The translations under genes and the position numbers were made by a program. The notes beneath the pieces were generated by a model. It was not told where the DNA came from. It made no database searches and was given only the letters and a program-made list of their open reading frames with translations. From Thraustochytrium sp. TN22 (taxonomy: Eukaryota > Sar > Bigyra > Thraustochytrida > Thraustochytriidae), in NCBI GenBank assembly GCA_013306675.1, contig JABLUY010000258.1, forward strand, positions 1-50,499: a stretch of 50,499 nt of DNA, written 5' to 3'. Within the stretch, counting starts at the first letter, position 1, and the number at the start of each line of letters is the position of its first letter. Shown one piece after another: positions 9,798 to 32,437 of the stretch.

Positions 9798-10767
9798 CCT
9801 GTCGAGCTGCCGAGCTGCCCGCTAAGACTCACTCACATGTCACAGCACAGCACAGCACAGCACAGCACAGCTAATTACCTTACTTACCGAGATGAAAACC
9901 GAAGATGACAATAGCCACGCATGATGATCAACGAACAATTCATGGTGACGCAGTCACGCCGAGCCAGCCAGCGAGCCAGTGCCACCTCGCGTCCGTAAAA
10001 GTAATGGAACCAAGCGTCTCCCACGTTCGAGGGTGCTTTTCTCCAAGCAACCTTCACTCAAGCGCCTGCCTGACAGGTCATCAGCACCTGTCTCCCAGTC
10101 CTTCACGCTGGCGGTTGGCCGTCAACTCTCTCTCTCTCCCCTTGCGCCTCCCAAGTCCCATTCCGCGCCTCAGCTCGCTCTTCCGAGCCGCCGACAGGCT
10201 CCTCCTGGCAGTGCTTCTTGCCCGTCAGCCGCCCGGCCTTCCCCAGGCCACTGCCTGTCGTCCCTTCACATCCTGGGACGGACGTCGCTCGTCCCCTCGC
10301 CTCCGCACCCCCGGACGCCCTCTGCCCGCCGTACGCCGCGGCCGTCCCATCCGCTCCATCCCGATCCCCGCCATGCCCTCTCGTCGCGGCCTCCCCCCTG
10401 GCGCTCGGCCTCCCCCGCGCCCTCCCGCCCGCGCGCTCCTCCCCGCCGCCGTCCCAGGCTCGGCGCGCGCGACCTCCCGCCTCCCCCCCGTTCCCCGCGC
10501 TCCCCGCGCCGTTCCCGTTCCCGCAACCCGCGGCGGCCGTCCCCGCGCGCACCGGCCCGGCGGGCGGCGGCGGCGGCGGCGCGGTTAGGGTAGCGCGAGT
10601 CCGGCGCGCGGCGCGCGGGCTCTTGGCCGTCAACCCGCGGGGCGAAGGCGCGCAAGCAGGGCGCGGCGGCGCCACACGCGCAGCGACTGGAGGCGCGGCG
10701 GGAGGCGCGGCGCGCGGCAGACGCGGGCAGAGCGCATCGAGCGGAGGACCCGGAGGACGCCAGCGCC
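9798..10767. other. Upstream region of RPL9 with CACAG repeat and pyrimidine-rich tract
   Basis: A CACAG pentamer is repeated about six times (9841-9870) just after the myosin stop. From about 10,130 to 10,550 the plus strand is strongly C/T-rich. This would serve as the uL6 promoter and leader. No gene is seen. Confidence 0.55.
10583..10593 (+). promoter_or_regulatory. Telo-box-like element GGTTAGGGTAG upstream of RPL9
   Basis: GGTTAGGGTAG lies 175 bases before the uL6 ATG. The identical 11-mer lies 145 bases before the first ATG of ubiquitin-eS30. In land plants a telomere-like telo box is a known element of ribosomal-protein promoters; a comparable role here is inference. Confidence 0.5.
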
Positions 10768-11732
10768 ATGAAGACCATCTCGGCCTCGCGCCTGGTCAAG
10801 GTGCCGGAGGGCGGTACGTGCGCGGGCAGCGGGAGGCGGGGCAGCCGCGAGCAGGCCAGGCAAGGCGAGGCGAGGCAAGGCCGCCGCGGAGGAGGGCCAC
10901 GGCCGGACGCGACCAGCGACGAGCGCGAGGGCGAGCGCGAGGAGAGGGAGGAGGACCGGGAGGACGAGGACGAGGACGACAGCGAGCGCAGCGAAATGGC
11001 AGGAGCAGCGAAACGGCAGGAGCAGCGGCGCGCGCGAGCGCAGGCGCTGCTCCAGGTCGCGCTGGGCGCCTGGCCTGCTCGCCGGCCTCACGGGCTTGGC
11101 CGAGGTGGCGCGCGGGACGTGCGGGGTGGACGGGGCGGGAAGAGCGTGCAGGGCAGGCAGGAGCAGGCAGACTAACCGGACGAGGTTTCGATCGCGCAGT
11201 TGAGGTGTCCATCAAGGCCCGCACGGTCTCCGTCAAGGGCCCGCGCGGCGAGCTGTCCCGCAACTACGACCACCAGTTCCTTGAGATCACTCTTGAGGAG
11301 AAGGAGGATGGCTCCAAGGTGATCAAGGTGCAGAAGTGGCACGGCAACAAGAAGGAGCTGGCCTGCATCCGCTCCATCTGCACGTCGATCATGAACCTCA
11401 TGACCGGCGTCACCAAGGGCTACCGGTACAAGATGCGCCTGGTGTACGCTCACTTTCCCATCAACGCCGTCATCAACGGCAACAAGGAGATTGAGATCCG
11501 CAACTTCCTCGGCCAGAAGAAGGTGTTCCGCGTGAAGATGCGTGCCGACACCACCATCGAGAAGGGCACCGCGCTCAAGGACCAGCTCATCCTTGAGGGC
11601 AACGACGTCGACGCCATCTCCCAGTCGGCCGCCGACATCCAGTGCAAGTGCAAGGTCCGCAACAAGGATATCCGCAAGTTCCTCGACGGTGTGTACGTCT
11701 ATGAGAAGGGCCCTATTGAGGAGGAGGAGTAA
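10768..11732 (+). CDS. RPL9: 60S ribosomal protein uL6 (RPL9), one intron
   Basis: Exon 1 is 10768-10813 and exon 2 is 11200-11732, giving 192 aa, the usual length for eukaryotic L9/uL6. Exon 1 encodes MKTISASRLVKVPEG and splices in phase 1 into VEVSIKARTVSVKGPRG. Family landmarks follow: RYKMRLVYAHFPINAVI, EIRNFLGQKK, DQLILEGNDVDAISQSAA and NKDIRKFLDGVYVYEKG. The intron (10814-11199, 386 bp) starts GTACGT and ends CAG, with a clear ACTAAC branch site at 11171-11176. The frame stays open across much of the intron, so a single-exon reading would give a false long N-terminus. The product is part of the large ribosomal subunit near the P-stalk base. It converges on RRP41, with a 21-bp repeat array between them. 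Confidence 0.95.
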
Positions 11733-12155
11733 GTAACAGCATTTGCCCTGCTCTACTGGTTCGTTGCTTTCTTTCCAGATGTGAGGTTACGGTAGCAAGT
11801 ACAAGAGAAGCCAAAGCGATCGCAACAGCCGGCTACTGCCATTCAACAAGAAACGAGAAGCCGTATGACATGAGACTAGCTTACTTGGCAGAGACTGACT
11901 GTGAGAGAGGGCTTGTGTGTCATTGAGTCCTCGCTCAAGCGTTGGTCTCGCTCCTCGCTCAAGCCAACGCCATCGCAAAAGCAAAGCCCTGCCTGCGGCC
12001 CTGCGGCAGTGCGGCAGTGCGGCAGTGCCACAGTGCGGGCAGTGCGGCAGTGCGGGCAACAAGAAACGAGAAGCTTGTTCGTTTTCCGCATGACATGATA
12101 CAGAAGAGGACGAGACTACTTGACAGAGAGTGAGAGAGGGCTTGTGTCCTTGAGT
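11733..12155. repeat. Imperfect direct duplication and GCAGTGCG-type repeats
   Basis: A block at about 11845-11955 (from AACAAGAAACGAGAAGC through GAGAGAGGGCTTGTGT to CCTCGCTCAAGCG) recurs in altered form at about 12058-12165. Between the two lies a short GGCAGTGC-type tandem (about 11999-12056). It appears to be the seed of the larger array next to it. Confidence 0.6.
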
Positions 12156-12319
12156 CCTCGCTCACGCGTTGGCCGTCCTCGCTCACGCGTTGGCCGTCCT
12201 CGCTCACGCGTTGGCCGTCCTCGCTCACGCGTTGGCCGTCCTCGCTCAAACGTTGGCCGTCCTCGCTCAAACGTGGCCGTCCTCGCTCAAGCGTTGGCCT
12301 CGCTCCTCGCTCACTGGCA
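12156..12319. repeat. 21-bp tandem array between convergent RPL9 and RRP41
   Basis: The unit CCTCGCTCACGCGTTGGCCGT is perfect at 12156-12239 (four copies). It then degenerates through two units with AAACG and a last unit with AAGCG. The array stops about four bases short of the RRP41 stop codon. There are no spacers, so it is a minisatellite and not a CRISPR array. Confidence 0.85.
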
Positions 12320-12322
12320 GAG

Positions 12323-13256
12323 TCAACCGCGCTTGGACACGGCAGCCGCGACGAGCTCGCGCACCTTGCTATCTAGAACCTTGTGGACGAGTTGGCAGCC
12401 GGCCTGCGCCTCCTCGAGCAGCTGCTTGAGCAGCTCCTCCGTGACGCGCACGGAGCTGCTGGCCATGCGCAGCGTCAAGACCTTGGAAGCCTTGGGTAGC
12501 AGCGTCAGCGTCAGCTCCGGGCCGCCGGCCGCCTCCTCGAGGTAATTCAGGTCCAGCAGAGCCGTGTGGTCCAAGAAGCCGACGTTGCAGCACGTCACAA
12601 AGTCGACCATGGGCACGCCGGCGTGAATGAGCGCCAGCGAGACCGCGTTCACACACGCTGCCAGCACGCCGCCGTCCGCCTGCAGAATGTGCACAGTGAT
12701 GTCGATCTGCGACCGCTTGAAGAGCTCCGTCTGGATCACCTGCGTGAAGGTGTCCTCCACAAAGTTCGCCACGGCCAGCGACCGCCTGTCGCCTGAGCCA
12801 CGCCGTGTCGGTACATCATCTTCCGTCAGTACGCCTCGCCCGACTTTGCTCTACCCTGCTTTCTCACTCGCTTGCTCGCGCTTGCTTGCAATGCCCCAAC
12901 CTACCGGCCCTGCGCCGCCTGCGCTCCGTCGTGCTAAAGGGCGCCTGCGAGACTTCGCACTTGACGATGGCCCTATCATGCTTGGCGCTGCGTCGCGTTG
13001 CGTCGCGTCATCCCTCCACGTCAGTGACCTCCTCCTCCTCCTCCTCCTCCTCCTCCTCGCTGTCCTCCGCTACGTACTCGCCGCGCTGCGCGACCTCGCG
13101 CGGGCCGTGCACGATGGCCAGCACCTTGGTCAGGCCCTGGTCGAGCAGCGCCGACCCATCGCAGTCCGCCACGGCCGCGAACTGGCAGCCGATCTTGCGC
13201 ACCTCGTGCCCGCGGCGTCCGTCGCCGCGCAGCCCCGACAGCTGCACGAACTCCAT
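12323..13256 (-). CDS. RRP41: Exosome complex subunit RRP41 (EXOSC4), three exons
   Basis: The exons on the minus strand are 13256-13078, 12987-12905 and 12792-12323, giving 243 aa (human EXOSC4 has 245). Exon 1 starts MEFVQLSGLRGDGRRGHEVRKI and ends at GPREVAQRG. Exon 2 encodes KHDRAIVKC and APFSTTERRR. Exon 3 begins GDRRSLAVANF and carries the RNase PH core (RSQIDITVHILQADGG, EEAAGGPELTL). Intron 1 (13077-12988) has donor GTACGT and intron 2 (12904-12793) has GTAGGT; both hold ACTGAC 33 bases before the acceptor. Spacing between GPRE and DRA matches archaeal Rrp41 after splicing. The product is a ring subunit of the RNA exosome, normally without catalysis in eukaryotes. A poly-GAG tract inside intron 1 could be misread as a Glu-rich exon. 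Confidence 0.92.
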
Positions 13257-13963
13257 CTCGCTGCCGCGCCGCGCCGCGCGCGCCCCTGGCTGGTCTTCTC
13301 GCTCTGCCCGCCACGAGTCCCGCCGCCATCGCCGTCGCTACTTATGCCGTCCGCCTGGCTGCTGTGGCGCCTTGCCGCTGCCAGCCATGGCGAGCGCGCC
13401 TGCCCAGGCCGTCAGACAAGACGCGGCGCCAGCGCGGCCCGGGCCGAGCTGGAGCTCCTCACAGACGAGCGGTCCGAGCTTCGTGAAACATACATTCCGT
13501 GGTACGTGAGGTATACCTACGTGCTGCTGCCGCCGTGTCTTTGCCGCCTCATGGCACAGCGGCCCGACGTGGAGACGTCAAGGCGGAAGGCCAATCGAAG
13601 GCCTCTTTGCAAAAGCTGTGAAGGCCCGTTGTGTGAACACGATTAGGTGTCTTCTATTACTTTCCCAATTTACAAGCATCTCACGGCGTATCGAGGTCAC
13701 CTCAAAACCGGACGTCATCTTCGCGCTTCGCCGCTTGGCAGGCCAGGAGGCTCGTTCGCGCGGCCCCAAGCACGTCACTGACAGTTCGGTAGACTTTTTG
13801 CCGCCCACCGCGTTTCGACTTCAAGTTTCCCTGCTGCTGCGGTACGGGAAGCAGCTTGCAGGGCCAGAGCAAGTAACTTACCTGCGTGGAATGTGAAAGA
13901 AACTGGAGGTCAATGAGGAAAAGGCGGCGGGGAAACAGAAGGACTTCTTACCAACCAAATCAC
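13257..13963. other. Intergenic region upstream of RRP41
   Basis: This 0.7-kb space contains the RRP41 promoter and the 3' flank of the next minus-strand gene. It is less GC-biased near 13,620-13,690 and 13,900-13,960. I see no gene or repeat. Confidence 0.5.
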
Positions 13964-15661
13964 TCAAAAGGCCGTGAGGCCGAAGACCTTGAGCTTGGGA
14001 CTCGTCGCACGAGGATCGTCGACGGAGCAGACGCGGATGAACTTGGCGCAGCCTTCAGAGCCGCCTTCCTTGAGCTGGACGAGGCGGTTGGTGCCCTCCG
14101 ACGAGTGGTCCTCCCACTTGCAGCTGAGGCGCACCGGGGTGCCTACGACAGCATAGTTTTCCTGCTGCGGGCACGACTGCAGCAGGCTCACCTCGGCGAC
14201 GCCAATCATGTCGTAGGTGTGGAGCAGTTCGATCATGTAGACGAAGATGGGGCTGGAGGTGGACAGGTTGAGGGTCAGACAGGCGCCTTGGGTAGTGGTC
14301 ATGGCGGCCCGCGGTTTGCGCGGAACATCTGTCGTATATGACCATCCCCTGGACACCGCTGCCACGACGTGCGCCCTGTATTCCTTGGTTTGTTTAAGGT
14401 TCATCTTGAGGGGCTTGGCGGATCGGAGCACTGTGTCAATGTGCTCACCCATAGCAAGGGGTGGGGGGAGGTCTGCAGAGCCGAAGTGGTCCGCCTTGTA
14501 CAGAGTGGCCGGGTCGGCGGCCCTGAAGCGCTTGTACATCTCGTCAAGCGCCCAGGAGAGCACTGAGGCGGTGATGTTGTGACCGAACTTTGTCGGATGT
14601 AGCCCGTCGTTGATGAAGCACTCCTTGCGGAATTCAAGGACCTCCTGTTGCCAGCCTGGGCCGGCCATGCGCATGAGATCGATCTGCGGGACGTCGTAGT
14701 ACTCGAGCACCTCCAGGTGGATGTCGCTCGAATCCGTCCGAAATGGAGCATCATATGGCCTCCGCGTTGAGATCTCCAGCCAAAATAGGGCTACGTTCGG
14801 ATACGCGGAGCGCAAGTGGCGTGGGATGGCCTCATTCCAGAACGAGACTGCGGCCTTGGTTTCTTGTCCGGCCTGAGGCGGCGACCGCTCCACGTCGTTT
14901 GCACCCACGTCCATGATGACAAGGTGTGCCTTCTCCAGGTGAGCCTTCACGTCGGCATCGACCATGCGCTTGAAATGGTGGTCTGCGCCGACAGAAGTCT
15001 TGCTCAAGTTGATCACCGAGTGCTCACCCTCGCACGGGTGACGCGTGTTGAGGATATGGCTCAGACGGTTTATCCAAGTGTCCTTGCCGCCATCTGGATG
15101 GTCCGGATCCTTTTTATTGCCAGACCACCCAATGCCGATGGAGCCCCCAATCGCGACCACCGTTGTGCACTCTCCCTGGCTGAGTTTCGTGAAGAATTGC
15201 GAAAAGCGGCTCTCGTCGCCCAGGTTGGTCAGGCTCTTGGCGCACGCGTTCGCCGTCAGGTCTTCAGGTCGAAACTTGCACAAGGGTTTGATTTCGCCGA
15301 TATGAGAGCCGTCCAGCTCCTGGGCCCAGCACGGCGCGTGCGCTGCACTGGTAAGCTTCGGCGACGCCGAAGGCGACGACATCGACGATGACGGCTGTGG
15401 CGGCCACGTCGGAAGTGGCTGCGATGGAGACTCAGGCGACAGCGGCTGCGACTGCTGCGTCGGCATCTCGTGCTGCGTGCCCTGCGTGGCGCTGGCCACG
15501 TCATGCTGGACCAGGTCAACTTCCACGCCCCTTAGCGCGCTTGCCGGTGCACTCGTGGTCAGCGCATGGGCGAGAAGCATCGCAAGCAGCACGAGCAGGC
15601 CCCACGCGACCCACGGGCGCACGCGCACATAGCCATCCTGCTCCTTGTCCTCGTTGTCCAC
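13964..15661 (-). CDS. Membrane-anchored SGNH-hydrolase-like protein (5' end unresolved)
   Basis: The frame is open from 15661 (a GTG) to the stop at 13964, about 565 aa. No ATG occurs in frame between 15661 and the upstream stop at 15790-15788. The first in-frame ATG (15580) falls inside the membrane span, so an unseen upstream exon probably supplies the start. A short polar N-terminus precedes one transmembrane helix (VAWGLLVLLAMLLAHAL), a type II anchor, then a Ser/Pro/Gln-rich stem. The catalytic region shows SGNH-like blocks: VVAIGGSIGIGWSG with Ser in GGS, a VGAND motif, and DGLHPTKFGHN with the Asp-x-x-His pair. A C-terminal beta-rich region of about 140 aa follows. The protein likely acts in the Golgi lumen or outside the cell on acetylated glycans or lipids; that role is inferred from topology only. 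Confidence 0.75.
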   Translation of the reverse strand: MDNEDKEQDGYVRVRPWVAWGLLVLLAMLLAHALTTSAPASALRGVEVDLVQHDVASATQGTQHEMPTQQSQPLSPESPSQPLPTWPPQPSSSMSSPSASPKLTSAAHAPCWAQELDGSHIGEIKPLCKFRPEDLTANACAKSLTNLGDESRFSQFFTKLSQGECTTVVAIGGSIGIGWSGNKKDPDHPDGGKDTWINRLSHILNTRHPCEGEHSVINLSKTSVGADHHFKRMVDADVKAHLEKAHLVIMDVGANDVERSPPQAGQETKAAVSFWNEAIPRHLRSAYPNVALFWLEISTRRPYDAPFRTDSSDIHLEVLEYYDVPQIDLMRMAGPGWQQEVLEFRKECFINDGLHPTKFGHNITASVLSWALDEMYKRFRAADPATLYKADHFGSADLPPPLAMGEHIDTVLRSAKPLKMNLKQTKEYRAHVVAAVSRGWSYTTDVPRKPRAAMTTTQGACLTLNLSTSSPIFVYMIELLHTYDMIGVAEVSLLQSCPQQENYAVVGTPVRLSCKWEDHSSEGTNRLVQLKEGGSEGCAKFIRVCSVDDPRATSPKLKVFGLTAF

Positions 15662-16491
15662 GCCTCGGCGCTGTATTGCGCTGCTCTCCTTGTTTGGGCC
15701 GCAACGCGCTCTGCGCCCGCGGTGGCGGCTGCGCCGCCCCCTGACGCGCGCGTCGCGCGCTGCGCCGCCTACGCCGCCCCGGACGAGCTACCCGCTTCGT
15801 CACCTCTGTCAGCTCCGTCAACTTCGAGCTTTGCTCGCTGGCGCTTCACGTGCTCCTCCGGCCGGCCGGAGCCTCTGTCCAGGCCCGAGTGCAAGTGCGT
15901 GTCCAGCCTGAGCGAGGGCGCGCGCGCCACGTGTCGGTCGAGACCGTGACCTAACTTAAGTTAGTTCAAGTTACACTGCCTCTGCCCGTGCGAAACATAA
16001 CTAGTTTTTCCAACTGTAATAGGCCCGAAAGTGGACTTTGACGACTGCGCCACTGTGCATTCGGAGTTCCGACCGCCCCGCGTCAAGTTGGACTCGCGAG
16101 CTCGAAGTGGCGCTGCCGGGCCAGGCCACGGCTGCTTGCTCAAAGCAGCTCAAGTGTGTGCGCAAGATGTCTGGTGCCATCACCAGCAAGTGCGCCTAAC
16201 TAATGTCTCCTGCGGGGCACGATGCAGGATGCCGCGCCATGTGCAAGTCCGCACAACAATGATCAGCCAGGGTTGAAAAACTCTATCTTGAGCAGTCGTG
16301 ATGATCAGTATCAGCATCAGGCATCAGAGCCCGCAGAGCCCGCGGGGTCTCAGGCACGGCCAGACATGCGCCACATCGTCTCATGGCCTGAGTCAGGCAC
16401 AGCAGCCAAAGCATGTGTCACGCATCGTCTCTCAGACTCAGAGTCAGCAGGTGTCCGTCGCACAGGCACGGTCGAGCATGCCGTCGCATCG
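15662..16491. other. Intergenic region with 14-bp palindrome
   Basis: The space upstream of the membrane SGNH gene may hide its first exon. A perfect palindrome CTAACTTAAGTTAG lies at 15951-15964 in an unusually AT-rich patch. CAT/CAG-rich words fill 16,300-16,490, the 3' flank of the transporter gene. Confidence 0.5.
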
Positions 16492-18165
16492 TCAGGACTC
16501 GGCGGCGTGTTGAAGGCTGACGACGATGGACCAGAGGCCGGTGATGGGGAAGAAGATGAGAATGCAAGCGATGAGCATGAGCTCAGAGCGGGCGAGCGGA
16601 CGGCGCACGCGTAGGAGTTCTGCAGAGGGCAGGAGAGCCGGGCCAGGGGAGGAGAGCGAGACGGAGGAGGACGGCGAGGCCAGGAGAGGGTCGTCGTCTA
16701 GAGCCTCCGGGTCGCGGTGGCCGGGCCAGAGCGCAATGAGCGCGATGCAGGTGGGGAAGACGTAGGAGAAGCCGACTACGGCGCCGCCGCCGGTGACGGC
16801 GAAGACGGTTTTGATGCTGGGCACGCCGAGTGCCACAACGTATTGCACGGCCATGAGGCAGACGGTGACGAGCAGGCGCCAGCGGCGCCTGTGCGGGAGG
16901 CGGAAGATGGCGAGCACCGTGGCGCGCAGAGGGTGCTCGAGCAGCGGCAGGCAGAGAAAGCAGCAGAGCGCGATGGAGGCGCGCGCCGTGTTGATGCCGT
17001 CGTCTGTGGGCGAGAAGTTGTTGAGGATGTTGCCCTGGGTGTCCGGGCCGAACAGCGCAAAGCCGGAGACACCGAGGAGCGCGTAGAGCACGAAGCAGGT
17101 GACGATGGAGCCGATCAGCACGAGGCGCCAGGTGCGCACGTTGCGCTGCGCGGGCGGCAGGCTGCGAAAGAGCGGCACGCAGTTGAAGTGGAAGACGTAG
17201 GAAAAGTTGAAGATGGAGAGGCCGACGACGAAGCCCTCCCAGCGCGAGAGCGCCGGGCAGGCGGCGTCCCAGAGCCCGGGCTGGCGGCCCTCGCCGCGTG
17301 CCAGCGCGCTCAGACCGCGCGCGCTCACCACGACGATCATGTAGACAGAAAACGCGAAGCCGAGCATGCTCGTGTAGCGCAGGCTGCTGAGGCGGCGGCG
17401 CAGCGACAGCGGGAGCGAGACCGCCAGCACGAGCGCGCCCGTGACGACCTCGGCGCTCGCGTACCAGGGCAGCGGCTGGCCGTGCTCGTACTCTGGGCCG
17501 AGCATGCGAGCCGCCAGATCGGGCCAGACCTCCTTGCCGATGGCAATGTACGCGCAACAGCCGCCAAAGAGCCCCAGCGCGTTCGTCCCGTTCACGACCC
17601 AGCGCACCGTGGCCTCGCGGCGCCGCACCCAGGGCTGCGCCGAGGACCTGCACGCGTGCAGCGCAAGGCCCTCGTACGAGTCAAAGTCCTGCGCCGACGT
17701 CAGATAGCTCCGCACGAAGATGTCGCCCGTGAAGAAGGTCAGCGCCGACACCGCCAGCAGCGTCAGCAGCCCCGGCAGCACGCCCAGGCACTGAAAGGCC
17801 GCCGCCAGCGACATGAGCCCCGTGCCGATCACCGACATGACCAGCGTGAACGCGGCGCCCAGCGGCGACAGGTGGTGCTTGCCCTCTGCGTCCGACACCA
17901 CGCTCCCTGCCACCGACACGCCCGCCGCCGCGTCCTCCTCGTCCAGCGCGAGCAGCGCGCCGGCCGCCGCGCCGGCGGCGCCGCCGTGATGCTCATCCAG
18001 CCGCCGCCACTCCTCCTCCGACGACCCGGACGACCCGGGCGACCCGGGCGCCCCGGGCCGGCGGTCCGCGCGCGCCCCGCCCGCCATCGCCGCCGCCCCG
18101 CGCGCGCCGCCTCCGAGCTCGCCACCCGGCTTTGCCTCGCCTCGCCTCGGCCGCGCCATCCTCAT
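16492..18165 (-). CDS. Amino-acid transporter, AAAP/SLC38-type
   Basis: The gene encodes 557 aa from the ATG at 18165 (a second Met two codons later is equally possible). The N-terminal 110 residues are hydrophilic and Gly/Arg/Glu-rich. The first membrane helix carries the Aa_trans signature (HLSPLGAAFTLVMSVIGTGLMSL). About eleven helices follow, including NGTNALGLFGGCCAYIAIGKEVWP, VVGLSIFNFSYVFHFNCVPLFRSL and the late GGGAVVGFSYVFPTCIALIAL. The family imports or exports neutral amino acids by H+ or Na+ symport at the plasma membrane or vacuole; substrate and membrane cannot be told from the sequence. It diverges from the Kintoun-like gene across a 1-kb space. Confidence 0.88.
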   Translation of the reverse strand: MRMARPRRGEAKPGGELGGGARGAAAMAGGARADRRPGAPGSPGSSGSSEEEWRRLDEHHGGAAGAAAGALLALDEEDAAAGVSVAGSVVSDAEGKHHLSPLGAAFTLVMSVIGTGLMSLAAAFQCLGVLPGLLTLLAVSALTFFTGDIFVRSYLTSAQDFDSYEGLALHACRSSAQPWVRRREATVRWVVNGTNALGLFGGCCAYIAIGKEVWPDLAARMLGPEYEHGQPLPWYASAEVVTGALVLAVSLPLSLRRRLSSLRYTSMLGFAFSVYMIVVVSARGLSALARGEGRQPGLWDAACPALSRWEGFVVGLSIFNFSYVFHFNCVPLFRSLPPAQRNVRTWRLVLIGSIVTCFVLYALLGVSGFALFGPDTQGNILNNFSPTDDGINTARASIALCCFLCLPLLEHPLRATVLAIFRLPHRRRWRLLVTVCLMAVQYVVALGVPSIKTVFAVTGGGAVVGFSYVFPTCIALIALWPGHRDPEALDDDPLLASPSSSVSLSSPGPALLPSAELLRVRRPLARSELMLIACILIFFPITGLWSIVVSLQHAAES

Positions 18166-19188
18166 CGCCCATCACCCTGGCCACGCCCATGACGTCCATC
18201 ATGCCGGGCGCCGCCAGCGCTGCGCGGCGCCGCCTGCGCCTCGGCGGGCGTGACCGAGGTTCGCCGTGCAGTCACTGCAGTGCAGTGGCGCCCCGCCGCC
18301 GCGAGGTGCCGCGCGGGCCTTTTTGTGCAGCGAGCGCTTGAGCTGCGCCGCCGGAGTGGCGAGACCTGGAGGCCTTCAAAGTCGTGGCGCTGCAGTGCCG
18401 GTCGCCGTGCAGCTGCAGCTCGTAGGCGACGCAGGGCGCGGGCCTGACGACCAGGCGTGATGCGAGGGGGAGGTGAACGCCGAGCAGAGCGGGAGGGAGG
18501 AGGCGGCTTCGGCCCCCACGCGGGCGACACCGCATGGCATTGGACAGCGCGGCGCTGCGACCAGCGCCACTGCCTGCCTGCCTCCTGTGCGACTACCGCC
18601 GCGCTCAGCGGCGCGCTGCGACCTTCCTTCCTCTGACAGGAGCCTTGTTGGGGACGGCTGTGAAGATTGTTTACCACTCATGGTCGTGACGGTCCCACTG
18701 CACGGAGCCGGAGCCGGAGCTGCCGGACCACTGGCACTGGCAGGCAACAAAGAGCAGCCAGAAGCTTCACCAAGCTGCGCATCGGTGCCGGGCCCTTCGT
18801 GATCGTGGTCGTCGCAGCGCGCCGGTCATCCGTGTCTTTCTTGCTCGCGCGTCCGAGTCCGAGTCCGAGTCGGAGTCCGAGTCTTGCGCGATGATGCGCA
18901 TCCATCGAGAACTCGCAGGCAAGCGAATTGGAGGCGGCTCTCGCCATCCGGCCGCCATCCGAGCTTCGCGCCGGTCGGCCAGCGCCCGCCCGCCCCGCCC
19001 ACGCGCGCGCCGCGGCTCGGGCCTGGGTCGGGCGGGACCCGCTTGCCCGGGTTCTGCCAGTGGGCTCCGGCGCCATGGCGAGTCGGGCCCTCAACAGAAC
19101 CCAACGGCCGGCAACGCCAGGCGAGGCGAGGCGAGGCGAGGCGAGGCGAGGCGCGGCGCGCGCGAGGCGGGCTTCCGGGCGCGGGAGG
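18166..19188. other. Divergent upstream region with CGAGTC and GAGGC repeats
   Basis: The 1-kb space between the transporter (-) and the PIH1 gene (+) contains a GTCCGA hexamer run (18851-18883) and a GCGAG/GAGGC pentamer run (19119-19152) just before the PIH1 start. No gene is seen. Confidence 0.55.
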
Positions 19189-20535: not shown

Positions 20536-20567
<32 letters not shown>

Positions 20568-21126: not shown

Positions 21127-21218
21127 CAGTGACCACACGATTGCAAACACAGATGAAAGGCTTGTTTCTCTCGCAACCAACACATACACACTCGCAACCA
21201 ACACCACGGTGGCGAGGA

Positions 21219-21803: not shown

Positions 21804-24672
21804 CCTCTCGCCGTCGCCGCTCGAGCCGACCTTCTGCACGCGCACCAGCTCGAGCGCCTGAGCTGGAGTCGCTCGGACGCGCGCGCACGCACGCACGCAA
21901 GCACGCACGCACGCACGCACGCACGCCGACAAGCACAGGCAGGGACCGGCCGGCGCCGCTCGCGCTCGCCGCTCGCCTCCCCGCGCGCAGCTCGAGCTCC
22001 GTTCGTTCGGAAGACCCCGTTCGGAATTCGCAATTTGAATTCGTCCTTGCCCATGCACCGGGGCTGCTTCTGCTTTTCCCCGCTCCACCTCACCGCGCGT
22101 GCGTTCCGTTCTTCCCCGCTGTCCGTTTCGTCCCGTTCTGTTCTCCTCCGCCTGCCAGCGGCGGCTTTTACTCCGCCGCTGCCCCCCTACGCCCTGGTCC
22201 GATTCCCCGGCGCGTCTGCTTGCTGCGGGCCGAGGCCTGCACCGGGGGAACGTCCCGGCGCCGGGGATGCGCCGGCCGCGGAGGCGAGCGGGCGCGCGGA
22301 CGTGCAGGGCGCCCCCGGCCCGGGAGGCTCCCGGCGCGGACCGGCTCACGGCGTAGAGACTCAGCGCCGCGTTCAAGCAGGTTGAACGGCGGCCAGCCGT
22401 GGCCACCGGCGGCGCCGCGCGCCCGGCTGCCGGCGTCTGCGCGGCTGCCCGGCCTGGCGGGGGCGCTCCCTCCGCCGTGGCGCGAGCTGAAAGGGCCGTC
22501 GCGAGATGCGCCGGAGTCGGCATCCGCCAGCCAGCCGTGTTTTGCTGGTTGGCAGCGGCACCGTGACACGGTGACCGTGACGAACTAGAGGGCTGGCTCA
22601 GCCTGGCTGGCGCACCGGGCGGTTAGGTGAGCCAGCGGTGGCGGGCGAGCTAGCCCGAGCGCAGCGTGCAGTGCGGCAGCGTGCTGCCCGTGATCGCAAG
22701 CCTTGCACAGCCTTGCAGGCAGGCGGCAGGTTGAAGTTGAAGGGGAGCCTGGCGGGAGAATGCAGCGCGGCCGGCACTGGCAGGCGTGCAAGCAAGTTGC
22801 AAGCAAGCTGGGGTCCGCGTCAGCTTCGTCTTGCTTGCTTGGCCTTGCGCAAGTCGCGCGGTTGGAGCCGAGCTGGCTGGCGGCGGGGGTGGTGGAGCCT
22901 CGGAGGACCTGGCTGCGGCACAGCCGCTGCCAGTGCCGGCCGCCGTGGCTCAGCTGGCTGGCGAGCGGAAAATGCGAAAGAAGCTGCTCGCGGATGCTCT
23001 CATGGCGCATGCCTCCGACTCCGAGTCGGCGGCGGCCAGTGTGACACCGTCCGAGTCGTGGCTGTCGTCAGCCAGCGGCGCTTGGCCTTGGCGGCTTGAG
23101 TCTCGGCGTTTCCAAACTTTCCACAGCTGCGATCTCCAAGCAAGCAGAAAGCAGCCAGCCAAGGGCGGCCGGGCCAGCTGACTCTGAGAGAGGCGTCATC
23201 CCAAGCGGCGCGAGCAGCTTGCGGCCGCGCAATCGAGCGCGAATGCAGTCGTCTGCGCCTGGCTTCTTCAAGTTGACTCGATGTGAGTGCTCAGCAGCCG
23301 CTGGGGGTCCGAGTCGTGGTCCATCCATCATCGATGGTCGCTCCACGCCCGCCCGCCCGCACGCCCGCACGCACGTACGCACGGCTGGCTGGCAGCGCGC
23401 GGACCAGCTTGCGAGCGAGATCGGAGATGGCCGGCCACCAAAGCGCAGCTCGTGGAAGTCCGAGCCACTGCAAGCGGGTTCTTTGTCACTCGCTGTCAGC
23501 TCGCGGCGGGCGCCCCCAAGACCGTGGCCGCCGCGGGGTCCGCCACGAGCCCAGCCGCCTCCGAGTCTGCGCCACCGGCCGCCCGCCAGTCAGCCAGCTC
23601 GGGGCCTTTTGCTCGCAAGATCCTGCCTCGCCAAGTCGTGCCTCGCCGTGCCTTGGCGTGCGCTGGCGTGCTTCCGTTGATGCTCAGCGAGGTGATGATG
23701 ACGAACGTGCAGCCCACTGCCGGCCAGCCTGCTGGAGTCATGGGAGAGAGATCGAGAGGGTGGCGAGCTCCGGCCCGGCGCGCAGGCGGCTCGCGTCCGT
23801 CTCTTGGTCTCGCCGCGCGGCCTGGCGCGATGGCGGCGCTGCCAAGAGCCTGAAGGCTGGCCGCTGGGAGCCTGGGTCAGCGCGCCTGGTCTTGCGCGCG
23901 CATCATTCGGCTCGAGCCGCTGCCCAAAAAGTTGCGCGCGACCCGCTGCCCTCCAAGCAAGTTGCGCAGCACCAGCTTGAACGCACCCAGCGGCAGCCGG
24001 CACTGGTGATGGCAGGCACCAGCGCTGGCCGCTCTCGCCCGTTCGCGCTCCAGCCCCTGTTGTTCGTCGTGAGGCTCGCGGCGCGCGGGTCCCGTGCTCA
24101 TGCCGCCGCGCGTCGAGTCGGAGTCCGCGTCCGCGTCCGCGCCGGCGCCGGCGTCGGTTGCTGCTCGCCGCGGGCTCGCTCCCTCGCCGCCGCGCCTCGC
24201 CTGCCGCGCCGCCCGCGCCGCGCCGCCCGGCACGGCGTGGCCGCGGCCGGCCGGTCGGGCCTGAGCGCCCCGCGTTCGAGCGGCGGCATGCACGGCGGCG
24301 ACGCGCAGGAACCCAGCGCCGCGCCGCGCCGGCCTTGCCCGAGCACGCCGGCGGAAGGGAGCCGCGTTGCGGCCTCGGCGGGCGGCCGGGAGGCGCCGGC
24401 GCGTGGCCGCGGTCCATTGATCCCGCTTAGACGCTCGCGCCGCGCGCCAGTGGCCACGGGATCCACGGGTGGCGCGCCGCGCGCCGAGGTCGGCGCGCCT
24501 CAGCGACCGACCCGAGTTCCTGGTTCTTGCTGCTTTTCTGCGCGGGGACGCGCGCCGGCCGTCCCCAGCGCGGGTCGCGGCGGCGCGGCGGCGGAGAGCG
24601 CAAAACCGCAATCGATCTGGAGAGCAGAGCAGAGGAGGAGGAGGGGGAGGAGGAGGCGCGGAGCGAGGCAAG
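21804..24672. other. Long gene-poor region
   Basis: The 2.9 kb hold the thioredoxin 5' flank and the permease 5' flank. Visible elements are an ACGC tetranucleotide run (about 21,885-21,926), a related CGCACGCA stretch (about 23,350-23,385), and many copies of short words such as GCTGGCTGG and CACTGGCAGG. Open frames here, including a long one merging into the permease gene in another frame, lack recognisable protein features. I found no tRNA. Confidence 0.5.
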
Positions 24673-26778
24673 ATGCACAACGGCATGGAGGTGCTCTCGG
24701 ACGACGAGCGCGCGACCCGGCGCGAGCGCGCGGCGGAGCGCGCGGTGCTGGCGGTGCGCGGGCACGTCATCATCCCCGACATGAAGGACTGCGTGCCGTA
24801 CATGATGGTGCGGTCCGGCGACTGGAACGGCTTCTGCCAGCTGCTCTTTGATAACGTGGCGACCATTCTGTCGCTGCTCAGCTCGTTTGATCTCGTCGTC
24901 ACAGGCTACTACAACAGCACGCTCATGACGTACGCGGATGCGCCTGAGATGGCCGGCTTCTTCGCCACGGTGCAGGACATTCAGTACCGCCGCATCCTCC
25001 CGGGCTACGGCTTCTCGCTTTTTGTGGCTGGCCTCGTGTACTCGCTGCAGTGCGTCCGCCTCAGCGCCGTCGACGGCTACCAGGCGACTGCGTAAGTTTC
25101 GATGTCCCTTTGCCGCACACACATGTGCACCCGCGCATCTCATCTCCCCGAGCGAAGAGACTGACGTCGCGTTCTTGCCTTCTTCGACGTTCACAGCCAG
25201 CCGTACGGCATCAACACGCCGGCGTCCTTCGCGACGCTCTTCACCATCATCTCCGGCACTGTGACCGCCTTCAGCGCGAGCTGCACGCTGTCGGACGCTC
25301 CTTCGAGCGAGGAGCTCGTGCTGTACAACGAGTGCTGGACCAATGCGGCCGAGCAGGGCTGGCAGGCTGGCATCGTGACCAACTTCGTCGTGGGCCTGCT
25401 GCAGATCGGTCTCTCGTTCGTCGCGCCCTGGCTGCTCTACATTGCGCCGCCCGTGGCCGCTCTCGTCGCGCTCGGCGGTATCTCCATCAGCTTCCTTGGC
25501 ATGAACCAGCTGGCCTACGTGTTCGCGGAGCCCATCACCGGCTTTCTGCCGCTCTTCCTCATCTTCGCCCTCTACCTGGGCGAGGTCAAGGTGCCCTACT
25601 TCCCGTCCGCCGCGCTCGTTGTGCTCACCGGCCTCGTCATTGGCTGGGCCGACGGCACGCAGACGAGCGAAGACGTGCACGCCTCGGTCGAGAACGTCCA
25701 GTGGTATGGCCTCTCCACGAGCTTCTACGTGCTCGGTGACTCCTGGGAGTCCGTGTCCAGCTACGCCGGCACCGTCGTTCCCATTGCCATCGCCGCGGCC
25801 ATCGGCACGCTCACCAACTGCTACGCCATGCACCTGGCCGGCGACAAGTACAACGTCATTGAGACCATGATCATCGACGGCTCTTGCACCATCGTGGCCG
25901 CCTGGTTTGGCTGCCCGTACAGCACCTCGGTCTACATCGGCGGCCCGGCCTACAAGAAGATGGGTTCCGGCAGTTTCTACTCCATCTTCACGCTCACGCT
26001 CATCTTCTTCGTCAGCATGAGCGGCCTCTTCGCGCTCATCGACGCCATCGTCCCGCTCGAGGCCGTCGCACCCATCATCCTCTTCGTCGGCCTCACCATT
26101 CTGGCCGAGACCGTGGCCGCGGCCTCGCCGCCGCAGATGGGCCTTGCCTTCTTCGGCCTCGTCTTCAGCCTCTCGGACTGGGCGCTGCAGAACGGCTTCA
26201 ACTACAGCGACACCGCCACGTACTTTGGCTTTGTGGGCATGGCCAAGGGCACGCTGCTCAACGCGCTCGTCCTCACTTCCATCGCCGCCTTCTTCATCGA
26301 CCGCAACTACATCCCGGCCGTCTTCTGGTGCCTGCTCGCCGCCTTCCTCTCGGCCTTTGGCATCATGCACCAGACTGGCGGTGACGTCGAGGACTGGGTC
26401 GAGCCGCAGGGCACCTCGGCTGCCACCGGCTACTGCATCATCTCGCCAAACACCGACGGCTCCTGCCCGGATCGCACGCTGCCTTGCGGCGACGAGGGCC
26501 TCTGCGGCCCTACAGGCACCACCAAGTGGCGCTTCATGACTGCCTACCTCATGGTGGCCTGCATGGCGCTCATCTTCTTTGTCGCGCAGAAGTTTGGTGG
26601 TGATCTTGTACCGCCCCCGCGGGGCACGCTCGAGGAGGAGCAGGCCAAGGCTGAGGCGGGTGCGCACGACCTAATCGAGGGTAAGGCTGTCAGCCGCCAG
26701 GCCCAGCCTGCCCAGGACGGCAACACCATCGACCCCGAGCGCGACGGCAGCAGCAGCAGCGTTGTGCAGCAAGCCTGA
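24673..26778 (+). CDS. Nucleobase permease, NCS2/AzgA-like, one intron
   Basis: Exon 1 is 24673-25091 and exon 2 is 25197-26778, giving 666 aa. The intron (105 bp) starts GTAAGT, ends CACAG and has ACTGAC at 25160-25165. Splicing joins GYQATA to QPYGINTPASF in phase 2. The protein has roughly 13 hydrophobic segments. Family motifs of xanthine/uracil/adenine permeases are visible: PYGINTPASFATLF, and the region IETMIIDGSCTIVAAWFGCPYSTSVYIGGPAYKKMG, here cut short for length as DGSCTIVAAWFGCP and YIGGPAYKKMG. The substrate (purine, pyrimidine or other) is not evident. The family uses proton symport at the plasma membrane. The cytosolic C-terminus is hydrophilic and Ser/Gln-rich. Confidence 0.85.
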
Positions 26779-26806
26779 GCCTGCCTTGCCTTTCGCACCG
26801 TGTTTT

Positions 26807-26842
<36 letters not shown>

Positions 26843-27633
26843 TTATCTTTTCCTACTGGATCTCGATCCCCTTCGTTCTTAGAAAGAGAGAAAGAGAGAG
26901 AGAGAGAGAGAGAGCCTGCCATGAAGTGTGAGACTCAAATGAGGCCTTCTCTGACTCTCCGTGTTTTTGCCTTGGCCTAGGCCGGGCTCGGGCTCGAGTT
27001 GCCCCGCATTGCACGGCCACGCTACGTCGTTTGGCAGTCGCCTTGACGCGGCCGCTGCTAGCTCGTGGCACTGCCAGTGCACTGCCACTGGCAGGTTCAC
27101 GGACTCCCTGGCTGCCAGTGCGCCGTGCGGATGACGACGTCATGACGCCTTGCCCGGGCCGCCTCCGTCGCCTCGGTCACGAGGTACTGCGGGTTCCAAC
27201 GGGCCGCATCGGCACACGCCGCCGGCGGGGGGCAGAACTTCGAGTTGGCCAAGAATAGAGAGGGAGGCGCGACGACCTGCCAGTGGCAGGCGCGACGACC
27301 CGGACGACCCGGCGGCGGACAACGGCGCACCCTACGTCCCGAGCTAGTAGACTAGGCCAGCGCGGCATTTGCTGACAGTCGAGCAGGCAGGCAGGCAAGC
27401 AAGCGACTCGGAGAAGGGAGGCAGCGCAGGCGGTGGGCGTGCGGGCGGCGGGTGGGCAAGCGGGCCAGCAAAAAGTCTAGGCCGGCGCGCCAGGAGGCCG
27501 CCCCTGACTGGACCAGCCTGAGTCGTGGCGGCAACTAGCGAGGCCCGGCTCGGCGAAGGCAGCAAACACGGAACGAGCCACCCTCTCCGGTGCACGCGAT
27601 TGCTTGCTCTTGCTCGCTTTCGAGCAAAAAAGC
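26779..27633. other. Intergenic region with paired GA tracts and CTGCCANTGGCAG palindromes
   Basis: Two GA-dinucleotide tracts (about 26,808-26,840 and 26,881-26,914) each follow a TTAGAAAGAGAG word and are 40 bases apart. Two 13-bp palindromes, CTGCCACTGGCAG (27082-27094) and CTGCCAGTGGCAG (27277-27289), lie upstream of the PP2C gene. No gene is seen. Confidence 0.6.
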
Positions 27634-28863
27634 ATGGCTGGCGAAGAGACCGCGGGCTCCGGCCTTACGGTGACCAAGGCGCAATCGGCTGTGGCAAACC
27701 CGGTCGCGGTGGGCAGCTTCCTGCACCTGGGCACCAAGCAGGAGCAGGAGGATGGCATCGTCATCTGCAAGGAGCTGAGCCCGTATGCGGCGCGCGTGGC
27801 ACGCAAGCAAGGCCTGGACGCCAGCGGCATTGACGAGTCCGCCCCACGCACCTTCATCTGCCTGCTGGACGGCCACGCCGGCGACTCCTGCATGGTCTTC
27901 GTTCGCGAGGCCATCTTGGAGCAGGTCTGCATCGAGTACGCGCGCATCACATCCAGCGCGAGCGATGAGGAGGAGGAGGTCAAGGAGGACGCCGAGGCCC
28001 AGGAAAGCGCGCAGTCAGGCCCGCACGCAGCGTCCAGAACGCCCCCGCGCTCGGCATGGTGCGAGGCGATGCACTGCGGCGTCCTCGAGCTGGAGCGCCA
28101 GTGGAGCGCCAACGTGCGCGCCACAGACCCAGCAAACCGCGCCGGGTCCACCATCACGCTGGCCGTCGTGGACGGCGACGCGCTGCATTGCGCGTGGACC
28201 GGCGACTCGCCATGCTGGCTCGTGCGCGGCGGCGGCGAGACGCGGCCCGTTTCCTCGCAGCACCGGCCGGACGTGGCGAGCGAGCGCGAGCGCATCGAGG
28301 CTGCCGGCGGCGAGGTGCGCGCCAAGGTGGTCGAGGTCGGCGGCTTCTTATGCATGCGCCCGCTGCGCAAGGAGGGCCCGCTGCGCGTCTTCCCCAGCGG
28401 GCTCAATATCTCGCGCAGCATCGGCGACGTCAAGTACAAGTTCGCGGCGCTGGGCGGCCAGGCTGGCGTCATCATTGCCGACCCGGACACATGCACGGTG
28501 GAGCTCGGCCCGGACGTTGACTATGTCATCATTGCGTCCGACGGTGTCACGGACAACTTCTCCAAGAGCTTGCAGGAGACCTACAAGCCTCTGCGCAAGG
28601 GCTTTTTCAAGGCGTATCACGCGCTCGGCTCGGGCCGCGCCGAACCACGCCCGGATGAGGATGCCATGGACTACGTCGCGGACCGCGCCGCCGAGGCCCT
28701 CGTCTACCACGCGCTCAAGCAGGGTAAGAGCGCGCGCTACCGCGACAACGCCTCCGCCGTGGTTGCCTGTCTCGTCGACAACATGGACTGCGACTTTTTG
28801 ACCATTGAGCGGCCCGTTGTGCCCGAGGCGGCCGCTCAGGAGAACCAGGCTGCCGCAGCATAG
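27634..28863 (+). CDS. PP2C-type Ser/Thr protein phosphatase
   Basis: The ATG at 27634 is the first in frame and gives 409 aa. The PPM/PP2C metal and catalytic motifs appear in order: LLDGHAGD (near residue 79, DGHAG in place of the usual DGHGG), AGSTITLAVVDGDALHCAWTGDS, QHRPDVASERERI, LNISRSIGDVKYK, IIASDGVTDN and DNASAVVACLVDN. All the aspartates expected to bind Mn/Mg are present. An acidic Glu/Ala/Gln-rich insert lies after the first catalytic strand. There is no signal peptide or membrane span, so it is likely a soluble cytosolic or nuclear phosphatase. Its target is unknown. Confidence 0.92.
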   Translation: MAGEETAGSGLTVTKAQSAVANPVAVGSFLHLGTKQEQEDGIVICKELSPYAARVARKQGLDASGIDESAPRTFICLLDGHAGDSCMVFVREAILEQVCIEYARITSSASDEEEEVKEDAEAQESAQSGPHAASRTPPRSAWCEAMHCGVLELERQWSANVRATDPANRAGSTITLAVVDGDALHCAWTGDSPCWLVRGGGETRPVSSQHRPDVASERERIEAAGGEVRAKVVEVGGFLCMRPLRKEGPLRVFPSGLNISRSIGDVKYKFAALGGQAGVIIADPDTCTVELGPDVDYVIIASDGVTDNFSKSLQETYKPLRKGFFKAYHALGSGRAEPRPDEDAMDYVADRAAEALVYHALKQGKSARYRDNASAVVACLVDNMDCDFLTIERPVVPEAAAQENQAAAA

Positions 28864-29280
28864 CGTGTAGTAGTACACTAGCAAGTCCTGGCTGGCTTCT
28901 GGACGGTGAAGCCAGGCACTCGCTCTATACTTTTCCTTGGAAGCACAATTTGATGCTGTATTCTTTCTCGTCCAATCAGGGGGACCTCTCGTGTCTTGGC
29001 TTGACCGCGAGGCCAGGCGCTCCTTTGACTTCTGATTAGAAAACCTTTTTCTTTCCATTCTCTAGGCCTAAGCTCCAGTACCAACACTATTCCACACGGC
29101 GCGCCAGGCCTGACGGCCGCCAACGCACGCATGCCTTGCCTTGGCGGCGGGCTCGCAGCATGTGTGGCTGTTCAGACACACCGAACGAACTCACGAATGC
29201 TACCGCTGCTGCCTACGAAGAGGTGAGCGAGCGACCAACAAAAAATTGCCACATCAAGGCTCTGCCCCGGTGTCCCCACA
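28864..29280. other. Convergent 3' space with a duplicated stop-codon segment
   Basis: This is the 3' space between PP2C and the CRAL-TRIO gene. The word CACATCAAGGCTCTGCC occurs at about 29,251 and again at about 29,277, the second copy overlapping the CRAL-TRIO stop. Nothing else is seen. Confidence 0.55.
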
Positions 29281-30297
29281 TCAAGGCTCTGCCTCGGCGT
29301 CCGGGTCGTCCTCCTCGGCGGGCGCGAGCTCGCTGAGCTGCTCGACCAGGGCGCGCAGCTTGAGCTCCTCGGGCGACTCACCCAAAGGAACGTCGCAGAG
29401 GCCCCCGAACTCACGCGGGATGTACTCCATGTCAATGTGCTCGGCGAGCGCCGCAAGCGAAGCCTTCTTGCTGTGCAGCACGTGGATCTTCTCCAAGGTC
29501 ACCGGGTCGATGAGCACGGAAACGGCGCGCCAGACCATGGTGAAGAAGACGGGCGCGTTGATGATGAAGACGCGGTAGGCGCGCTCCGGGTAGTGGCGAC
29601 CCATGATGACGTTGGCGGCCTTGATGAAGCGCATGGCGTCGCCCGGGAGGCGGCGCAGCGTAAGGCCGCTGCAGTCGATCACCGTGATGGTGCGGTCGTT
29701 GTCGTCCGGCATGAGGTAGGTGTAGAGGAACTCGGTCTCGAAGCTGTAGAAGCTGAGCAGCTCGTCAAAGGTGACGCCGCTGGCGTAGAGCCCCTTGATG
29801 TTGATCTTGCCGACGCGCTCGTAGTAGACCTGGCAGTTCTCCTTGGACTTGAAGTGCATAAAGTGCGGGTAGTGCTGCTTGATGCGGTCGCAAAAGGGCT
29901 GCGGCGTGGTGAGCGCCTCGTTGACGCGGTTCTCCGCGCGCCAGCGCAGCGTCTCCTCCCACCTGGCCTGCGCCTCCACGGCGTCGCCCTTGGCGCACCT
30001 GAGAAATCGCTGCGTGACGGGCGGGAACTCGCCCGTGCGCACGTAGGACTCCGTGGCCTCCCTCATCACCGTGCTGGGCGGCGCCAGCACGTCCCAGCGC
30101 ATCTGCGCCGCCTCCGCCGCCTCGCCCTCGCCGGCCTCGCCGCCCACGGCCGGCGGCGCCGCGCGCGCCTCGGCCTCGCGCCCGTGCTGCTGCCGTTGCG
30201 CCATGCTCGCCGCCACCACGCCGCGCCGCGCCTCCGCCTCGCGCCCGGCCCCGCGCCCGCGCACCAGCGCCACCACGGCGCCCGCGTCTGCGCCCAT
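29281..30297 (-). CDS. CRAL-TRIO (Sec14-like) lipid-binding protein
   Basis: The ATG at 30297 is the first true ATG of the frame and gives 338 aa; a Met near 30204 is an alternative. The N-terminal 70 residues are Arg/Ala/Gly-rich and low in complexity. A CRAL-TRIO N-helix region (FLRCAKGDAVEAQARWEETLRWR) leads into the lipid-binding domain: GLYASGVTFDELLSFYSFE, TITVIDCSGL, the ERAYRVFIINAPVFFTMVWR strand-helix pair, and IPREFGGLCDVPLG near the end. The tail is acidic (EEDDPDAEAEP). Family members move or present phosphoinositides, sterols or tocopherols in the cytosol; the ligand is unknown. It shares a divergent upstream region with ubiquitin-eS30. Confidence 0.88.
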   Translation of the reverse strand: MGADAGAVVALVRGRGAGREAEARRGVVAASMAQRQQHGREAEARAAPPAVGGEAGEGEAAEAAQMRWDVLAPPSTVMREATESYVRTGEFPPVTQRFLRCAKGDAVEAQARWEETLRWRAENRVNEALTTPQPFCDRIKQHYPHFMHFKSKENCQVYYERVGKINIKGLYASGVTFDELLSFYSFETEFLYTYLMPDDNDRTITVIDCSGLTLRRLPGDAMRFIKAANVIMGRHYPERAYRVFIINAPVFFTMVWRAVSVLIDPVTLEKIHVLHSKKASLAALAEHIDMEYIPREFGGLCDVPLGESPEELKLRALVEQLSELAPAEEDDPDAEAEP

Positions 30298-31514
30298 GCG
30301 CGCGCCGCGCCGCGCGCGCGGCGGCTCCTGGCGCGCGCGCCGCGGAGGTACGCCCTGCTCTGCCCTGCGCTGGAAACCGGCGGCGGCCCGGTCGGATCCG
30401 GGGCCGAGGCCATGCACGCGCGGGGCGACCCGGCTACGCGCTGGCAGGGCAGGGCAGCCTGCTCGCCGTCAGGCTCGTCCGAGCCGCGCGGCGAGGCCGA
30501 GGAAGGTCGCCGGCCAAGATGCAGGGCCTCTGCACGGTCGCGGGCTCGCGCCGGAGCGACGCCCTCAGGCTGGCTGCGCCTGGCACGCACGCATCCGTGA
30601 GACCTTAGCCTCTGGCGCGCTGGAAACCGGCGACGGCCAGGGCGCAAGTCCGAGCCCGAGACACGCGGCTGCGTCGCTGCTGGCCGGGGCTCATGCGCGG
30701 AGACTCGGGCTCGCATCTCACAGCTTGTCTGCGTCACGGTTGGTCGAGATGAAAGGCCACGGCCGCGCGCAGCGCGCATCAGTGAGACCTTAGCCTGCGC
30801 AGCCGGGCCTGCAGCGCCCAGCAGCGGACGTGGCCCGGCCTGCCGCAACGCGACGCAGGCGAGACGCCTGCGCCTGCGCCTGCGCCTGCCAGCAGAGCCG
30901 AGCCTGCCGCCGTCGGCCGGCGCGGACTCGGAGAACGCCGGCGGCCCGTGGGCGACTCGAAGGAACTTGAATGACCAGCCTGAGAACTTGAGGGAAAGGG
31001 GACATGTGTCTCGTGAGGGGGCAGTGCGGGCAAGCCGCTGCGGGCTAGGCCCGGCACAGACCGGGAGCGCACGCAGGCTGGCAGGCACAGCCTCACGGGC
31101 AGTGGCAGCGCGACTCGGCGAGGCGGACCCGCTCAGGCTGGCGCCCACTGGCCCGCCTCGTTGGCCGTGGGCCTCTCTTCGCTGCGCAACGCAAACGCAA
31201 CGCAAACCACGCTTCCGCGTTGCGCCCCTTCCACAGCGCGTTGCGCACGCCGCGCACCAGCGCCGCGCGTCCGCGACTGTCGCGGACGTCGCGGACGCCG
31301 TACGAAACGCTATCGGTCGCGTCGCGCCGGTATCGTGCACGCTACCGTGGCCGCCTTACGGGGGGCTGGGGTTAGGGTAGATGACTGGGCGCGGAGCAGG
31401 CGCGGCGAGGCGCGTAAGGCGGCGCGGGCGCGGCGCGGCGGCGGGGCGCTTGGCTGGGTGGTTTTCAAAGTCAAAGAGGCTTCTATTCGGGTCGTCGCCG
31501 CCGCCGCCGCCACC
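30298..31514. other. Divergent upstream region of CRAL-TRIO and ubiquitin-eS30
   Basis: The 1.2 kb contain internal direct duplications: GTGAGACCTTAGCCT at about 30,597 and 30,782, and CGCTGGAAACCGGCG at about 30,369 and 30,619. There is also a CGCCTG hexamer run (about 30,867-30,890). The telo-box-like element is near the right end. No gene is seen. Confidence 0.55.
31370..31380 (+). promoter_or_regulatory. Telo-box-like element GGTTAGGGTAG upstream of ubiquitin-eS30
   Basis: This is identical over 11 bases to the element before RPL9, in the same orientation and at a similar distance from the first ATG. Confidence 0.5.

Positions 31515-32437
<923 letters not shown>

Follow-up and report, generated by a model that had tools for sequence, protein, structure and literature searches.

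Upstream of the only two ribosomal protein (RP) genes recognised in a 50,499-nucleotide (nt) contig of the thraustochytrid Thraustochytrium sp. TN22 (the window, that is, the whole stretch analysed; contig JABLUY010000258.1, here C175, of a 37.9 Mb genome in 453 contigs) stands the same 11-mer, GGTTAGGGTAG, which resembles a telomere repeat. Is this a coincidence between two promoters, or does the word belong to a switch common to the RP genes of this organism? We find a telomere-like word upstream of most RP genes, and its long forms are rare elsewhere in the genome; it is therefore very probably a shared promoter switch. We read the consensus, (C/T)AGGGTTAGGG(T/C)A(G), as a double-stranded DNA promoter element that would mark and co-regulate the cytosolic RP genes and be bound by a Myb protein of the telobox type, and from sequence comparison we give this reading a probability of roughly 0.78.

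The two exact copies of GGTTAGGGTAG lie on the forward strand of the window at 10583-10593 and 31370-31380, as an earlier note on this DNA had reported, and 100 dinucleotide shuffles of the window contain none. When up to two mismatches are allowed, the window has 7 matches where 3.55 are expected, so that it is the exactness of the match that counts. The first copy (17-nt profile match 10580-10596) belongs to uL6 (RPL9; 10768..11732, forward strand), in which exon 1 (10768-10813) begins with the ATG at 10768, an intron follows from GTACGTG at 10814, and exon 2, from about 11200, carries the Pfam Ribosomal_L6 domain. The second (profile match 31367-31383) belongs to a ubiquitin-eS30 fusion gene (31515..32437, forward strand, ATG at 31515), in which exon 1 consists of the ATGCAG at 31515-31520, an intron starts at GTACGTG, and exon 2, from 31982, carries Pfam ubiquitin and Ribosomal_S30; the splice sites of both genes are inferred. 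The spacings of 175 and 145 bases given in the earlier note were counted from the end of the motif in one case and from its start in the other; with the first base of the motif as the reference in both cases, the distances to the ATG come to 185 and 145 nt. Its view that uL6 and eS30 are the only RP genes here stands, as 84 queries (72 human RPs other than these two, and 12 further proteins) brought up no third RP gene in the window at E <= 0.01, while uL6 and eS30 themselves were recovered as a positive control. The flanks are otherwise unrelated, as it also held: the 300-nt flanks match exactly only in words of at most 12 bases, the 11-mer included. The likeness to the plant telo box is retained in part, since the element is telo-box-like, but the window contains no copy of the exact plant word AACCCTAA. 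As a side observation on ubiquitin-eS30, the ATGCAG before the presumed intron donor occurs again at 31976-31981, where its AG is the acceptor; transcripts starting inside the intron could therefore still encode the whole protein.

Our main control is the genome-wide copy number of exact words. The genome holds 24 copies of GGTTAGGGTAG, against 134 of the reversed, non-complemented word. In a table of 75 RP genes, 22 of the 24 copies (those of the window included) fall 104-1002 nt 5' of the first detected RP exon, and they adjoin 25 RP genes because some of the promoters are divergent. The upstream space of RP genes amounts to 0.26% of the genome, which gives a naive binomial P of about 5e-55 for 22/24, again with the window copies included. 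A tblastn comparison of 72 RPs with the 24 loci gives the same figure: an RP gene at 20 of them, to which the two window genes add. For the word AGGGTTAGGG, there are 40 copies in the genome (reversed word, 127), and 34 are at RP genes. Thirty-one of these copies are at genes placed independently of the motif; the others are at eS26, eL41 and eL28. The last two genes were identified by reading the DNA beside AGGGTTAGGG, eL41 (Pfam PF05162) at 632 nt from the motif and eL28 (Pfam PF01778) at 147 nt.

Of the genes in the table, 72 were placed by searching the genome with RP queries; the remaining three are those of the window and eS26, which was found through a motif locus (L007). The matches that place P1, a second P2 and eL36 are weaker, and uL29, eS21, eL29 and RACK1 were left unplaced by the genome-wide query search. 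We analysed 80 upstream regions, those of the 75 RP genes and of five presumed non-target genes, leaving out a presumed mitochondrial uS4; the background consists of 43-44 one-kilobase pieces, all taken from the window. The top-ranked 7-mer is GTTAGGG, present in 49/75 RP promoters and 0/44 window pieces. Expectation-maximisation seeded with the 11-mer leads to the consensus given above, of which GGTTAGGGTAG is one form, and the sites in RP promoters have shared flanking preferences around one short word. At a score of 10, this wider element lies no more than 1,050 nt from the first detected exon in 60 of the 75 RP genes, compared with 0-3/75 in ten dinucleotide-shuffled sets. Without eS26 and the two window genes the count is 57/72, and by promoter region, with divergent pairs counted once, it is 55/70. 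Profile sites thin out beyond 800 nt from RP genes. Because the profile was trained and scored on the same RP genes, it was retrained four times on half the contigs; the held-out RP genes then score in 24/38, 23/35, 27/38 and 28/37 cases, and the background pieces in 0-1/43. Reversed words occur in 0/75, 0/75 and 2/75 of the RP promoters. The form that prevails is AGGGTTAGGG, with telomeric spacing (35 occurrences in 32 RP genes). For the looser core YTAGGGY, the counts are 62/75 RP promoters, 0/43 window pieces and 2/74 distal pieces. The two outcomes that the earlier note had named as fatal to the idea, no enrichment at other RP genes or an equal frequency in random sequence, are thus excluded for this genome by the shuffled sets and the background.

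Genes other than those of cytosolic RPs behave differently in most cases. The five presumed non-targets (mitochondrial uS9, uL2 and uS12; MRTO4; RLP24), whose labels rest on weak matches, score at most 2.0 within 1,050 nt; further upstream, the mitochondrial uS9-like gene faces uL4 and its site. In the complete genome copy lists, none of 20 places with tubulin, actin, GAPDH, EF1A-like, EF2, fibrillarin, histone H4 and ATP-synthase beta genes stands beside a copy of AGGGTTAGGG or GGTTAGGGTAG (eIF5A, NAC subunits, TCTP and eEF1B were queried too and are outside these 20). The upstream DNA of EF2 and fibrillarin scores at most 2.0, and the element is absent from it.

As a mechanism, we propose that a telobox-type Myb protein, bound to the TTAGGG-like core at 100-200 bp before the start, would bring in the transcription machinery, so that the RP genes would be raised and lowered jointly as growth changes. 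Of 44 matches obtained with telomere-binding Myb domains as queries, we read eight; three of these, on contigs C288, C31 and C142, are telobox-type Myb proteins with a V-x-x-K-D core, and their best solved relatives are TRF1 or TRF2 and other telomere-binding proteins. The core V, K, D and R are invariant across the four domains aligned with TRF2. The C288 protein (L109, G000:C288:1-2060; from about base 147, at a contig end) has two tandem telobox Mybs, RTSVDLKDKWRN and RTSVHLKDKWRN, with cores VDLKDKWRN and VHLKDKWRN, followed by a long acidic tail; Pfam recognises two Myb stretches, and among solved structures a telomere repeat-binding protein and TRF1 match it best. The C31 protein (C31:24351-26264; 594 amino acids from the first Met) has the core VDIKDKWRT; it is similar to TRF2 and TRF1, and TBF1 follows further down among its matches. 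The C142 domain (near 2240-2640 of its contig) has the core VSLKDRFRN, with Trf1, TRF1 and TBF1 among its relatives. The C288 protein is the leading candidate for the binder, with C31 and C142 as alternatives: its tandem Mybs would fit the two GGG half-sites of AGGGTTAGGG, and the tandem domain would be expected to prefer the double site (AGGGTTAGGGTAG) over a single half-site. Some plant telomere-binding proteins have a ubiquitin-like region. We considered the C-terminal region of C31 as such a region and rejected this for want of Pfam support.

The same element could instead be read by another kind of protein, such as a forkhead factor like Fhl1 or a zinc finger, leaving the telobox Mybs to serve telomeres only. 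Fission yeast offers a precedent, as its Fhl1 binds the HomolE word AGGGTAGGGT (PMC10253590); AGGGTAGGG is present in 9/75 RP promoters, and 3 of the 9 genomic copies of TAGGGTAGGGT are at RP promoters (eS19, uS9/eL13 and uS15). Against this, the dominant form has telomeric spacing, a fitting tandem double-telobox Myb is encoded, and AGGGTAGGG also occurs once in the 50-kb window; we consider a different binder improbable, yet the most serious of the alternatives.

Several results weigh against a telobox-Myb-bound switch for the RP genes as we propose it. Two exact copies of GGTTAGGGTAG (L008, C111:66375; L012, C141:40962) lie in near-identical duplicated segments in which no RP gene is seen, each adjoined by a coiled-coil reading frame. 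Six of the 40 AGGGTTAGGG copies are away from RP genes: three are near a TCP-1 chaperonin gene (read as CCT6), PET117 and a cytidylyltransferase gene, and three have no recognised gene nearby. The 8-mer GGTTAGGG is less specific, with 30 of the first 100 of its 156 places at RP genes, and the reversed profile still scores in 1-6 of 35-38 held-out RP genes. At score 10, fifteen of the 75 RP genes remain without a match (uS2, uS11, eS1, eS12, eS17, eS28, uL3, uL5, uL16, uL22, uL23, eL8, eL30, eL33 and P2b), six of them having a YTAGGGY core. Among the control genes, EF1A has a weaker form, GAGGGCTAGGGTTT, with a score of 12.9 within 728 nt upstream; the regulon may therefore include EF1A, and Arabidopsis EF1A likewise carries telo boxes (PMC3022908). 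As to the protein, the candidates were selected for their likeness to a family, the C31 domain passes the Pfam threshold of a CHD1 helix-turn-helix family as well, and single-sequence structure models of the C31 Myb domain and C-terminal region were poor (pLDDT 46 and 54) and were not used. In moss, the loss of TRB proteins raised telo-box RP transcripts, so an activating role is not a given, and the promoters of the differentially expressed genes alone were without enrichment (PMC12616469).

The position and strand of the sites bear on whether they act as DNA at all. For the 36 RP genes with both a site and a placed ATG (ATGs were placed roughly, by N-terminal tblastn match), the distance from site to ATG is 124-248 nt in 22 and 361-691 nt in 14, with none between; the 14 far-site genes may carry introns within the leader or near the beginning of the coding sequence. 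The earlier note had predicted strong enrichment 100-250 bases upstream, and both the 60/75 genes with the element and the nearer group of sites bear this out. The best site is on the strand of the gene in 35 cases and on the opposite strand in 25. Five divergent RP pairs have a common promoter region with one or two sites in it (uS12/P2, eS10/uL14, eL13/uS9, eL39/eS31 and eL42/eL31), and all ten genes score. It is quite unlikely that the motif works instead as an RNA element of the 5' leader, in translational control, or as a G-quadruplex: plant telo boxes are mainly within 5' UTRs (PMC3022908), the motif is G-rich and, of the 22 sites closest to the ATG, 16 are in sense orientation, but 25 of the 60 best sites are on the opposite strand, the element has only two or three G runs, and divergent genes share sites. 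Least credible of all is that the sites are functionless traces of telomeric repeats that entered where open promoter DNA had broken. The core does amount to about 1.7 TTAGGG units, but the 37.9 Mb assembly contains no array of the TTAGGG or TTTAGGG type with about three units, the sites consist of a single short word that has flanking preferences in common, a strong RP bias and a narrow distance, and the 20 control places adjoin no copy of AGGGTTAGGG or GGTTAGGGTAG. Telomeres are either missing from the assembly or of another kind.

Other words recur in the same promoters. Downstream of the element, AACGCGGG and ACGCGGGG are found in 11/60 and 12/60 RP promoters (within L025-L099) compared with 0/636, and GCGCACACC in 19/75 RP promoters compared with 0/44 window pieces; all three are possible partner sites. 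We set aside the enriched words GGTACGTG, CGTCAGTC/GACTGAC and CGCCGCCACC, which we take to represent, in RP genes, the 5' splice site, the branch site and the context of the start codon. The start context GGCA(A/G)GATG is present at 13 of 44 placed RP start codons, and eS30 differs from it with CCACCATG. Elsewhere in the window, a single reading frame on the reverse strand (1170-4295) encodes both a GDSL lipase and an amidohydrolase domain, an uncommon-looking fusion.

The consensus is new, and so, as far as we searched, is the lineage: among the matches listed, open-licence PMC papers give no account of a telomere-like RP element in stramenopiles or thraustochytrids, and the excerpts of PMC3597505, PMC10840233 and PMC10421102 contain no telomere-like RP motif. 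Similar logic is known in plants (telo box) and in fungi (Tbf1, HomolE). The long forms are specific enough (22/24 and 34/40) to predict genes, as eL41 and eL28 were recognised in this way; the tandem double-telobox Myb is a concrete candidate protein, and the element would offer a practical growth-promoter word for this organism. A tentative and broader idea, which we hold to be possible though on the doubtful side, is that a TTAGGG-type RP regulon run by telobox Mybs arose early in eukaryotes and was retained by plants, fungi and this protist lineage. If so, one protein family would have bound both telomeres and RP promoters, and the state of the telomeres would have been coupled to growth before these groups diverged. 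With one more, apparently distant lineage it becomes testable whether telomere-type Mybs ran early eukaryotic ribosome production or were recruited repeatedly.

How does the element compare with the known systems? In rice, 209/252 RP genes are reported to carry a telo box, which in the examples illustrated is 0-280 bp away from the start codon (PMC3022908), and AtTRB1 is reported to bind the telo boxes of Arabidopsis RP genes (PMC12616469). The thraustochytrid element is alike in that most RP genes have an interstitial word resembling a telomere repeat close to their start, and the proximal position of about 0-280 bp is shared by the 22 of 36 genes with sites at 124-248 nt, the other 14 being further away. 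It differs in its core, GGGTTAGGG(T/C)A here and AAACCCTA in plants, so that it is not the exact plant word, and in its specificity, as 9-10% of Arabidopsis genes carry a telo box (PMC3022908) and most copies of the long forms here belong to RP genes. A site II (TGGGCY) or TEF box partner does not appear among the top-ranked enriched words shown, no search by name having been made.

In Candida albicans, 72/72 strong Tbf1 peaks are in RP intergenic regions, and binding needs the palindrome TTAGGGN6CCCTAA (PMC2834713). The TTAGGG core and an encoded telobox-Myb protein (C288, C31, C142) are features in common. The direct AGGGTTAGGG prevails here in place of that palindrome, however, and the C288 candidate has two tandem Mybs; the likeness is one of protein family. 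A YTAGGG-CCCTAR palindrome with a gap of 0-12 is found in 2/75 RP promoters, those of eS1 and uL5, both as CTAGGGN5CCCTAG. These two promoters (L040 and L060) are without the usual element, and their palindromes, CTAGGGTAGAACCCTAG and CTAGGGCTTAACCCTAG, resemble the Candida Tbf1 site. In Schizosaccharomyces pombe, HomolE (ACCCTACCCT/AGGGTAGGGT) is an upstream activating element of RP genes (PMC10253590); the AGGGTAGGG form is a minor one in the thraustochytrid, as the counts given above for it and for TAGGGTAGGGT indicate, and HomolD (CAGTCACA) is absent among the enriched words shown, again with no search made by name. The general kind to which these systems belong, promoters of RP genes enriched in a core resembling a telomere repeat, is the one found here, at 22/24 and 34/40 for the exact words and 60/75 for the wider element.

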